This document shows, one piece after another, positions 3,072-46,650 of a stretch of DNA of 64,000 bases. The DNA is taken from assembly GCF_018394055.1 (NCBI RefSeq), contig NZ_CP074441.1, positions 806,001 through 870,000 on the forward strand. The letters run 5' to 3'. The number at the start of each line of letters is the position of its first letter. Position 1 is the first letter of the stretch. The notes beneath the pieces were generated by a model. The model was not told where the DNA came from, searched no databases, and was given only the letters and a program-made list of their open reading frames with translations. The stretch is from Weissella ceti (GTDB lineage: Bacteria > Bacillota > Bacilli > Lactobacillales > Lactobacillaceae). Made by a program: the position numbers and the translations under genes.

Positions 3072-4403
3072 TTAAATTTCAGTGTTCAATCGCTTAGCAT
3101 AGTATAGATAGATTGGTAATCCTGTCAGTACGAGTCCAATAGATACCATTGCTGAGAACGGATTACTAATTATTGTACTTAGCAAGACATACAATGCTCC
3201 TAGCCCGGCTAAAATTGGCACGATTGGGTATAGTGGTACCAAGAAAATATTTTCAGGGTGACCATTACCTGCTAACTTGTCAGCGCGGCGTAAACGGACC
3301 AAACCATAAAAGGCCATTAGGTAGAACATCCAAATGATGAACATACAAGCATTTGATAGCCAGTCTGCTGACGCTGAGAATTGTAGTAATCCACCTAGAA
3401 CTGCAAGTGTTAAAATCGCTCCTGCAGGTTCTTGTGAACGGTTAATGTACATCATAAATTTAGGCATCATACCATCAGCAGCCATGGCGTAAATTGAACG
3501 TGGTAAAGCCATCATCTTTCCATTCAATGTGCCCGCAATGGAAATCAAAATTGCTAATGATAATAGTCGTCCACCTAGATCACCAAAGGCAGATGTTACG
3601 ACACCAAAAGTTGCATTATCACCCAACGCAATAATTTCAGCGGCAGGCATACTTTGCATAACACCATAAGAAATACCGACATACGCAACAATCACAATCA
3701 ATAGACCATAAATAATTGCACGTGGGATGTTCTTACTTGGATTCTTTAATTCTCCACCCAAACTTGTTAAAGTTGCCCATCCATCATACGCATATAATGT
3801 TGCTAGGATGGCTACACCAAAGCCACCACCCGGCGTTGCTGTGATTGTATCAATTGTTTGACCAACAGCATTTACATTTCCAAAGAACAAACCAAAGATA
3901 ATAATTGCCGCAATCGGTAATAATTTGATTGATGTTGTTGCAACTGCGAATGCTGCTGGAATACGATTATCCAATAGGTTCATCCCTGTGATAAACACAA
4001 TAGCTAGCAATCCAATCCACTTAGCCCAATCACTTGGTAAGTAAAAGAAGTTCGTAATTAAAATGGCGAAATAAGCTGATAATGATGCCACAATAGCGGG
4101 CCCATATAGAAATGATTGTCCCCATCCACTTAAGAAACCAGCAGCTGGACCAAAAATTTTATGTATATAAACGTATAATCCTCCAGTTGATGGAATGCGT
4201 GACCCTAATTCTGCAATCGTTAATCCGGCCATTAAAGTAATTAGACCACCAAATAGCCATGCTAGCAGTGCACCTGTTGTTGATCCTGTAATGCTAAGTA
4301 CTTGTGCTTGTTTAAAGAATATTCCTGAACCAATAATTGTTCCAACAACGATTGAAATCCCCGTCGTCAGGCCCATTGATCGTTGCAAATTTTTACCTGC
4401 CAT
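3072..4403 (-). CDS. APC-family serine/threonine permease, SteT-like
   Basis: A 443-residue, 12-segment amino acid transporter. The N-terminal helix TTGISIVVGTIIGSGIFFK holds the conserved GSG of LAT/APC exchangers, and LAWLFGGLITLMAGLTIAELGSRIPSTGGLY, FLYGPAIVAS and LYAYDGWATLTSLGGELKNPSKNIPRAI align with B. subtilis SteT, the Ser/Thr exchanger, as I remember it. The start is placed at ATG 4403 (MAGKNLQ), because GGAGG at 4416-4412 lies 8 bases before it. A longer reading frame to 4514 would run back through a transcription terminator and is rejected. It is controlled by a leader-peptide attenuator immediately upstream, whose Ser/Thr codons support the substrate assignment. Confidence 0.85.
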   Translation of the reverse strand: MAGKNLQRSMGLTTGISIVVGTIIGSGIFFKQAQVLSITGSTTGALLAWLFGGLITLMAGLTIAELGSRIPSTGGLYVYIHKIFGPAAGFLSGWGQSFLYGPAIVASLSAYFAILITNFFYLPSDWAKWIGLLAIVFITGMNLLDNRIPAAFAVATTSIKLLPIAAIIIFGLFFGNVNAVGQTIDTITATPGGGFGVAILATLYAYDGWATLTSLGGELKNPSKNIPRAIIYGLLIVIVAYVGISYGVMQSMPAAEIIALGDNATFGVVTSAFGDLGGRLLSLAILISIAGTLNGKMMALPRSIYAMAADGMMPKFMMYINRSQEPAGAILTLAVLGGLLQFSASADWLSNACMFIIWMFYLMAFYGLVRLRRADKLAGNGHPENIFLVPLYPIVPILAGLGALYVLLSTIISNPFSAMVSIGLVLTGLPIYLYYAKRLNTEI

Positions 4404-4426
4404 GCGATATGCCTCCATATGAATAT

Positions 4427-4473
4427 AAAAAAGCCCTCCACTCCTGTTATCTAACATACGAGTGATGGGCTTT
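4427..4473 (-). terminator. Attenuator terminator (3:4 hairpin) in the steT leader
   Basis: AAAGCCC (4473-4467) pairs with GGGCTTT (4436-4430), and CACTC (4464-4460) pairs with GAGTG (4443-4439). The stem ends in six T (4432-4427). It lies between the leader peptide stop and the permease ribosome site, so transcription must read through it to express the gene. Confidence 0.88.
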
Positions 4474-4518
4474 GTGATTTGTAAATTACGTTTTTCCGAC
4501 GCAAAAATCCTCACCCAA

Positions 4519-4578
4519 TTAGGAACTGGTTGAGGTTGTAGAGAAACGACGATTTAGTTGTTGTGCGTGATAATACAT
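4519..4578 (-). CDS. Ser/Thr-rich leader peptide of the permease, 19 aa
   Basis: An ATG at 4578 with GAGG 8 bases upstream opens a frame reading MYYHAQQLNRRFSTTSTSS and ending in TAA. The last seven sense codons are TCT ACA ACC TCA ACC AGT TCC, i.e. Ser Thr Thr Ser Thr Ser Ser. Under equal codon use, seven Ser/Thr codons in a row would occur by chance about 3 times in a million. The peptide probably has no function of its own beyond sensing aminoacyl-tRNA supply through ribosome stalling ahead of the terminator at 4427-4473. Confidence 0.75.
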   Translation of the reverse strand: MYYHAQQLNRRFSTTSTSS

Positions 4579-4613
4579 AAGCTCTACCTCTGCTTTCGGA
4601 TATGTTAATTAGA

Positions 4614-4642
4614 AGATTATCATTTAACGAGCATATATGCAA
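4614..4642 (-). promoter_or_regulatory. Predicted sigma-A promoter of the steT leader
   Basis: TTGCAT (4642-4637), a 17-base spacer and TAATCT (4619-4614) lie so that transcription would begin about 20 bases before the leader peptide ribosome site. An inverted repeat GGGAAA / TTTCCC at 4660-4679 lies just upstream and could bind a regulator. Confidence 0.55.
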
Positions 4643-4766
4643 GAGTTTTCTCATTTTAAGGGAAACCAATCATTTTCCCGTTAAAGTACACAACATAAAA
4701 AATTTAACAACAATTTAACGTATCTCTGATAGATTAGACCGTATTCCATACAAAACTGAGGTCTTT

Positions 4767-5390
4767 ATGAAAAAATACATACTCTCAACTCACATCTTAA
4801 TTTTATTGTTTATCGTTACAATTTTTCTCTTACCTACTCGTTTCACTTTTCTTGCCTGGAATATCTTCCTAGCCGTTATCCCTTTTGATATTGCCTTATG
4901 CGTTAAAAAGCTAACGCCTAAACACAAATTATTAGTAATTCCTTTAACATTATTATGGTTGATTTTCTATCCAAATACCATTTATATGATTACCGATTTT
5001 GCGCATCTTTCTGCAATTGGTACTGGACTAATAACCTCTACCCAAATTTTAAATTATGGCCTATTAGCTATTGGTATTTTCTTAGGTGTGTCGTTAGGTA
5101 TTTCTTCGGCGCGTATAATGCTTCAAACTTGGCTACCGACTAGTTCATATATAGTAACGTTCGGCGTATTCTCAATCATTTCAATCCTATCTTCATATGC
5201 TATTTACATGGGGCGATTCTTACGCTTAAATAGTTGGGACTTGCTATTGGATATCCACAACGTAATACTACAAATGAATCATGCACTTTCTGTCCATTCC
5301 TTACATTTCATTCTGGTCTTTACTTTTGTACAAATTTTCTTAATGATTATAAATGTGACATTAAATCCATATACACAAAATAATAACTAA
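4767..5390 (+). CDS. DUF1361 integral membrane protein
   Basis: A 207-residue hydrophobic protein with about six membrane segments. Three motifs of the DUF1361 family are visible: WNIFLAVIPF near residue 35, FYPNTIYMITDFAHL near 70-85 and MGRFLRLNSWD near 150. The family's function is unknown. The gene reads against its neighbours, starting 189 bases from the divergent steT leader. A shared bidirectional terminator follows at 5589-5628, after about 200 bases with no convincing gene. The A+T-rich codon use resembles the adjacent teichoic acid genes. Confidence 0.85.
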   Translation: MKKYILSTHILILLFIVTIFLLPTRFTFLAWNIFLAVIPFDIALCVKKLTPKHKLLVIPLTLLWLIFYPNTIYMITDFAHLSAIGTGLITSTQILNYGLLAIGIFLGVSLGISSARIMLQTWLPTSSYIVTFGVFSIISILSSYAIYMGRFLRLNSWDLLLDIHNVILQMNHALSVHSLHFILVFTFVQIFLMIINVTLNPYTQNNN

Positions 5391-46511: not shown

Positions 46512-46518
46512 CTTCATG

Positions 46519-46556
46519 CTCCTAGTTTTTTTGCGTGGGATGGTTACGAACCACGT
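46519..46556 (-). promoter_or_regulatory. preQ1-I riboswitch controlling queT translation
   Basis: On the minus strand, CGTGG pairs with CCACG around UUCGUAACCAUC, followed by CAAAAAAACUAGGAG. This is the class I preQ1 H-type pseudoknot: P1 stem, C-rich loop, A-rich tail, and the Shine-Dalgarno AGGAG within the pairing tail. Ligand binding should hide the ribosome site and lower queT expression. Confidence 0.9.
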
Positions 46557-46650
46557 TAAATTTAAAATTTAGACAAATAAAGGCCAAATCTTATTTAATA
46601 ATTATAACATTAATGGTATAGCACTGCCTTATTCTTCTAAGGAAGATACA

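Follow-up and report, generated by a model that had tools for sequence, protein, structure and literature searches.

The analysed window, a stretch of 64,000 nucleotides from the Weissella ceti contig NZ_CP074441.1, carries on its minus strand a gene for an L-type APC amino acid permease that is preceded by a short leader (Table 1). The permease matches PF13520 (AA_permease_2) with an E value of 7.8e-48. Its best NCBIfam match is the L-type amino acid transporter TIGR00911, at 180 bits vs a cut-off of 701.8, and all of the 25 NCBIfam matches listed for it lie under the curated cut-offs. The solved sequences closest to it are 9h76 and 6f2g/6f2w, of which we take 9h76 and 6f2g to be BasC. The term "SteT-like" that had been given to the permease is to be read as a family-level statement; the protein would most likely import Ser/Thr. 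A gene encoding a DUF1361 protein (4767-5390, plus strand) lies divergent from the leader.

Table 1. Features of the leader and permease gene in window coordinates, followed by the loci of related leaders and T-boxes.
Feature	Position or locus	Strand	Details
L-type APC amino acid permease, 443 residues	3072..4403	-	SD GGAGG 4416-4412; start 4403
Leader peptide ORF MYYHAQQLNRRFSTTSTSS*	4519..4578	-	19 codons; ATG 4578-4576, stop 4521-4519
Leader SD and 5' arm of P1 (GUAGAG)	4582..4590	-	SD GAGG 4590-4587; sequence, MFE fold
Seven Ser/Thr codons TCT ACA ACC TCA ACC AGT TCC	4522..4542	-	last seven codons of the leader
P1, 3' arm	4538..4543	-	overlaps first Ser/Thr codons, pairs with SD region; MFE fold
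Region 1, 5' arm of hairpin P2	4524..4535	-	CCUCAACCAGUU; MFE fold
Region 2, 3' arm of P2, alternative partner of region 3	4509..4520	-	AAUUGGGUGAGG
Long-range stem P0, 5' arm UCCGA..GCAGAG	4588..4600	-	MFE fold; coevolution in 12 Weissella leaders
Long-range stem P0, 3' arm UUUUGC.UCGGA	4495..4506	-	MFE fold
Region 3, terminator 5' arm, antiterminator partner of region 2	4460..4472	-	AAGCCCAUCACUC
Terminator region 4 with its U run	4427..4443	-	3' arm GAGUGGAGGGCUU 4443-4431; six U 4432-4427
Candidate promoter TTGCAT-N17-TAATCT, TG before second hexamer	4614..4642	-	by eye
Asn-run leaders upstream of permease	L023, L031-L039, L041, L042, L044-L047, L049		
Thr-run leaders with hairpin, antiterminator and terminator	L278 about 1190-1437 (G027); L281-L304		
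g43 T-box loci	L107, L108, L113, L125, L131, L132, L133		tandem pair of T-box matches in L108 and L131

The first-pass annotation had described the leader as a 19-codon frame with a ribosome site that ends in seven Ser/Thr codons, which is exactly what the sequence holds, with the GAGG placed 9-12 bases 5' of the leader ATG. The window contains 189 frames that are 8-45 codons long and preceded by an SD. Seven Ser/Thr in a row occur only in this leader, one other frame having five, while a simulated control (2.56 Mb of first-order Markov sequence with 6598 such frames) yielded six frames with at least five in a row and none with at least six. A Ser/Thr run of this length in a short SD-preceded frame is not chance. 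The frame and its ribosome site lie between the permease gene and the candidate promoter, which was picked by eye and the parts of which, TTGCAT and TGATAATCT, recur in the 89% relative G026. This promoter is absent from the promoter-scan output, where the single match was 4450-4422, and a terminator scan of 4380-4800, which takes loops of at most 8 bases, listed none.

Folding of 4600-4427 (minus strand) gave an MFE of -49 with a z value of -4.2, and none of 200 shuffles was equally stable. The fold contains both the terminator formed by regions 3 and 4 with its six U and the hairpin of regions 1 and 2 that had been proposed earlier, the latter with 11 pairs (4535-4524 with 4520-4509) instead of the claimed 8. 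The alternative pairing of regions 2 and 3, originally put at 5+5 pairs, is predicted at -11.9 kcal/mol with 9+5 pairs when eight bases 3' of region 2 are counted. Two stems are additions to the structure of the first-pass annotation: the long-range P0, which joins the stretch before the SD to the stretch after region 2 and thereby closes a three-way junction, and P1, in which the SD region is paired with the foremost Ser/Thr codons so that the SD is hidden. Tested singly against dinucleotide shuffles, the window leader reached p 0.02 for 1:2, 0.17 for 2:3, 0.06 for P0 and 0.48 for P1.

Conservation and coevolution of the leader in Weissella

DNA of the same leader was found by BLAST in only 2 of 60 genomes, the window's own genome (G000) and G026, and the comparison was therefore made via the permease, using its orthologues and their upstream regions. 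The search covered 28 genomes of the genus and the tree 93 permeases, of which one Weissella clade of 20 genes includes the window permease. A leader with a Ser/Thr core kept in frame (e.g. TTSSDSTT, TSSDST or TSRSTS) precedes 19 of these 20 genes, L008 from W. halotolerans being the sole orthologue without one, and both a 1:2 hairpin and a terminator were found in all 19 leaders. Their best eight codons hold four to seven Ser/Thr, the weakest cores with four being those of L005, L006, L016 and L017.

Between the window leader and its closest relative in G026 there are four synonymous and no nonsynonymous codon differences. Other close pairs gave synonymous to nonsynonymous counts of 2:0 (L020/L021), 0:4 (L016/L017), 1:9 (L016/L019), 1:5 (L020/L022) and 0:10 (L044/L045). 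Closely related leaders thus do not differ by synonymous codons throughout, the pairs being mixed or mainly nonsynonymous, which speaks against the attenuator reading; judged by eye, the nonsynonymous differences in the Weissella Ser/Thr leader pairs fall mostly outside the TSS and ST residues.

In 26 leaders drawn from three genera, the placement of stall and stop codons conforms to a leader-peptide attenuator. The core begins with a Ser/Thr codon 17-31 nt 5' of region 2, and the stop codon lies between 6 nt 5' and 25 nt 3' of the first base of region 2. In 10 of the 26 leaders the stop falls beyond region 2, at a distance from its end of 15 nt (five leaders), 9 nt (two) or 4 nt (three), where masking of region 2 by a finished ribosome is less certain.

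Coevolution of the pairings was assessed in an arm-swap test comparing each leader's own duplexes with arms of other species, using 12 representatives of the 19 Weissella leaders, with region 3 placed by hand in 4 of the 12, and 20000 permutations. Permutations as good as the true assignment numbered 0 for 1:2, 32 for 2:3, 0 for P0 and 47 for P1, and own arms beat swapped ones in 115, 84, 99 and 69 of 132 cases, respectively. This is not a phylogenetic test; it is not obviously inflated by relatedness, because relatives share arms, which makes the swaps less different. Singly against shuffles, p <= 0.05 was reached by 1:2 in 12 of 12 leaders and by 2:3, P0 and P1 in 5 of 12 each. The 2:3 energy ranges from -10.6 to -20.0 kcal/mol in eight of the 12 representatives and is weak (-7.0 to -8.8 kcal/mol) in the other four, which belong to the W. 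hellenica/bombi/fangxianensis clade and in which it is no better than swaps or shuffles. L014 has a replaced terminator, and its region 2 still fits its region 3 (p 0.02). Together, these data indicate that 1:2, 2:3 and P0 coevolve in Weissella, with 3:4 found as a hairpin throughout. The alignment of orthologues that had been suggested as a check thus came out in favour of the earlier claims, with the Ser/Thr codons kept in 19 of 20 orthologues and the arms apparently coevolving over the 12 representatives; the alternative 2:3 pairing is in the window leader alone no better than shuffles.

Codon runs in other leaders and T-boxes on the same permease

A paralogous Weissella permease clade comprises 26 genes that are 48-55% identical to the window protein. 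Asn-run leaders such as MFSFVNNNNNNDRFNST precede 17 of them, and in two of these leaders, from W. oryzae and W. muntiaci, Asp occurs alongside Asn. Nine genes, including G000's own copy (L040), lack such a leader. Using 11 of the 17 Asn leaders, 14 of 20000 permutations were as good for the 2:3 pairing GUGAUUGG:CCAAUCAC; P0 (1461) and a pairing of the 5' strand with region 2 (1231 of 20000) were not established in this set.

Among the 11 AA_permease_2 genes of G000, a Ser/Thr leader occurs once, and upstream of four other genes there are short frames with an SD but no codon run. Extended to G027 and G125, where it covered 30 of the 37 matches listed (15 of 15 and 15 of 22), this check yielded a Thr leader. 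It belongs to a third permease whose best NCBIfam match is ThrP, a bifunctional threonine/serine transporter (568 bits vs a cut-off of 850). Thr-rich leaders, mostly TTTTSTT or TTTSTT, were detected before this ThrP-like gene in 19 of the 25 genomes holding it, the remaining six being five genes without a leader and one with a degenerate frame. As 16 of the 19 leaders could be parsed and near copies were left out, 13 entered the swap test, in which 0 (1:2), 3 (2:3) and 3 (P0) of 20000 permutations were as good; in L304 the 2:3 pairing is weak (-5.6). The Asn leaders and the Thr leader before the ThrP-like permease therefore provide independent support for reading the element as an attenuator. 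In the W. confusa-type genome G027 the ThrP-like gene lies next to the Ser/Thr-leader permease in convergent orientation, and G000 gave no ThrP orthologue at the search threshold used. We also note that the ThrP-like gene of W. viridescens (L302, G002) carries one in-frame TAG and no Thr leader, and that the ThrP-like match in G017 spans residues 8-287 only.

Outside Weissella, the upstream regions of 83 permease matches contained seven Ser-run leaders (five in g6 and two in g54) and seven T-loop motifs, all in genus g43, with neither detected by these searches in 69. Matching upstream DNA and peptides suggest that g6 corresponds to Limosilactobacillus and g54 to Lactobacillus. In a set of 64 named non-Weissella loci (L175-L239 without L206) there were 23 Ser leaders. 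They are present in 18 of 20 loci titled Limosilactobacillus and also, among others, in Lactobacillus kalixensis (NTSSSSSSSSGK) and L. ultunensis. The codon runs outside Weissella are almost all Ser, and in the tree the non-Weissella Ser clade forms a branch separate from the Weissella Ser/Thr clade, which may reflect two origins or one origin with many losses. For six Limosilactobacillus/Lactobacillus representatives, a set in which the automatic terminator boundaries were poor, the swap test was not significant for 1:2 (1272), 2:3 (4071) and P1 (19495 of 20000), and P0 was low at 155 of 20000.

All seven g43 genomes with a match have T-boxes before the same permease, with RF00230 E values of 1e-11 to 2e-7 that are below the Rfam gathering score. 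Their specifiers, read by eye and uncertain by one base (AGC, Ser), are ACC (Thr) in two and GCC (Ala) in five. A T-box was also considered for the window leader and rejected, as RF00230 has no match in the window; the T-loop motif GGGUGGNACCGCG was likewise not found upstream of the Weissella permeases examined. T-boxes occur in 28 of 28 Weissella genomes and are thus common in the genus, so a lack of T-boxes does not account for the leader peptides. A T-box motif was seen in G000 before another AA_permease_2 gene (upstream of L245, at about 1502700 of G000:C1, minus strand).

It seems quite possible, if short of probable, that the Weissella leaders are versions of one re-codable attenuator module, in which an SD-hiding junction, a hairpin and a terminator are set before different permeases and the codon run (Ser/Thr, Thr or Asn) matches what is imported, with the same permease placed under a Ser leader or a T-box in related lactobacilli.

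Proposed mechanism, alternatives and known systems

The element is in our view very probably a ribosome-mediated transcription attenuator of the permease gene, in which a stall at uncharged tRNA-Ser/Thr permits read-through. This Ser/Thr reading of the first-pass annotation gains support from the Weissella orthologues as well as from the parallel Asn and Thr leaders of other permeases. The sequence itself shows the frame and its codons, the pairings that are possible, a terminator, the geometry, and both conservation and coevolution; from these we infer transcription, an order of loading, stalling, an amino acid response and Ser/Thr transport as follows. A ribosome would load on the leader SD before the SD-hiding Ser/Thr codons are transcribed. 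With charged tRNA-Ser and tRNA-Thr, it would reach the stop codon and cover region 2, or region 2 would refold with region 1; region 3 would then be free to form the 3:4 terminator, and transcription would end near 4427. If tRNA-Ser or tRNA-Thr is uncharged, the ribosome would stall some 20-30 nt 5' of region 2 and mask region 1, allowing 2:3 to form in place of the terminator and the permease to be transcribed. In the third state, without a ribosome, P0, P1 and P2 would fold together, hiding the SD and locking region 2, and the gene would be off.

An unlikely alternative is that the Ser/Thr codons are a by-product of structure, UCC/CCUC serving as anti-SD in P1 and as arm of P2, and that the switch senses translation of the leader generally. 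The pairing of bases 4543-4538 with the leader SD region, the coevolution of P1 in Weissella (47 permutations as good) and the prevalence of TCT/TCC among the Ser codons of the Limosilactobacillus/Lactobacillus leaders (131 of 199) would all fit this idea. It is opposed by the reading frame: in all 46 distinct leaders (16 from Weissella and 30 from Limosilactobacillus/Lactobacillus) the frame densest in Ser/Thr is the translated one, with means of 5.4 and 6.0 Ser/Thr per 7 codons, respectively, vs 1.4-2.6 in the other frames. AGC/AGT, TCA and ACN codons are used too, the paralogue leaders carry Asn runs (AAU/AAC) that are unable to act as anti-SD, a Thr run precedes the ThrP-like gene, and P1 coevolution was not seen in the non-Weissella Ser leaders, as its 19495 equally good permutations show. 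In the Weissella leaders, a codon role and an anti-SD role may both be present.

A response to drugs or to general slowing of ribosomes rather than to one amino acid, as in the resistance-gene leaders of such kind known in Firmicutes, is less probable still, given that the genes downstream are amino acid permeases and that the codon run varies with the permease family. Least credible of all is the idea that an ordinary terminator stands upstream of the gene, with a small ORF there by accident and no regulation. The absence of both promoter and terminator from the scan results and the one leaderless orthologue could be cited for it, against the retention of the leader in the other 19 orthologues, the coevolving arms and the complete lack of runs of at least six Ser/Thr among the 6598 simulated frames.

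The gene content of the genus is compatible with the preferred reading of the element as an attenuator sensing Ser/Thr. serC is absent from 28 of 28 Weissella genomes and thrC is above cut-off in three of the 28, G000 not among them. For asparagine, asnA was above cut-off in 0 of 28 genomes and asnB in 0 of 28 (with weak partial matches in 28), results that are consistent with auxotrophy and are not proof of it. Import of Ser, Thr and Asn is thus likely important, although Ser could still come from Gly.

In the trp, his and thr attenuators of enterobacteria, a short leader containing a run of regulatory codons is translated, the pairings 1:2, 2:3 and 3:4 exclude one another, and the terminator has a U tail. 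The Weissella element shares all of these parts, but its codons are Ser/Thr (Ser, Thr or Asn in its relatives), it stands before a transporter gene instead of a biosynthetic operon, its host group is the Lactobacillaceae, and the predicted hiding of the leader SD by P0 and P1 may set it apart from the enterobacterial leaders.

Among Gram-positive bacteria, leader-peptide attenuators with branched-chain amino acid (BCAA) codons are described for ilv-leu of S. aureus (PMC5794164) and for Rli60 of L. monocytogenes, whose RBS and ATG mutants lower ilvD transcription (PMC5864092). Like the proposed Weissella element, these are ribosome-mediated attenuators with regulatory codons; unlike it, they combine BCAA codons with a biosynthesis operon. 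The SD-hiding fold of the Weissella leader, with its off state without translation, predicts an effect of the kind described for the Rli60 mutants. His leader attenuators are described for the B. cereus group, Eubacteriales and Erysipelotrichales (PMC9413887) and for hisS/hisZ of bacilli (PMC2965389). They likewise are leader-peptide systems, identified comparatively in Firmicutes that otherwise frequently rely on T-boxes, and they differ in their histidine codons and his genes. A related permease, in the form of the steT/ykbA orthologues of the B. cereus group, is reported to have a Thr-specific T-box (PMC2494555), which shares with our element an overlapping amino acid and antitermination by uncharged tRNA. 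The g43 T-boxes resemble the element in the same way, through a related permease and transcription antitermination by uncharged tRNA; in both T-box cases, the RNA as described binds the tRNA directly, unlike the Weissella element, with no leader peptide or ribosome involved. The occurrence of T-boxes on these permeases counts in favour of the preferred reading.

Titles and abstracts of the open-licence literature gave no Ser, Thr or Asn leader in lactic acid bacteria and no attenuator of the leader type in any of the genera Weissella, Leuconostoc and Lactobacillus. The specificity for Ser or Asn appears to be new, as do the permeases as targets and the host group; the kind of attenuator itself is known. 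If the proposed mechanism is true, serine and asparagine would join the amino acids sensed by leader peptides, and such attenuators would head amino acid permeases in lactic acid bacteria apparently unable to make these amino acids. The permease would further offer a natural test of T-boxes and leader peptides replacing one another on one gene, and the codon runs may predict what is transported by permeases for which the sequence by itself does not reveal the substrate.

A known riboswitch was considered as well and rejected: in the window and in 24 loci, of which 20 carry a leader, no Rfam 15 family matched over a leader. The only matches at gathering score in this set were two tRNAs and, elsewhere in the window, a PreQ1 riboswitch at 46516-46560 on the minus strand (RF00522, 51.6 bits).
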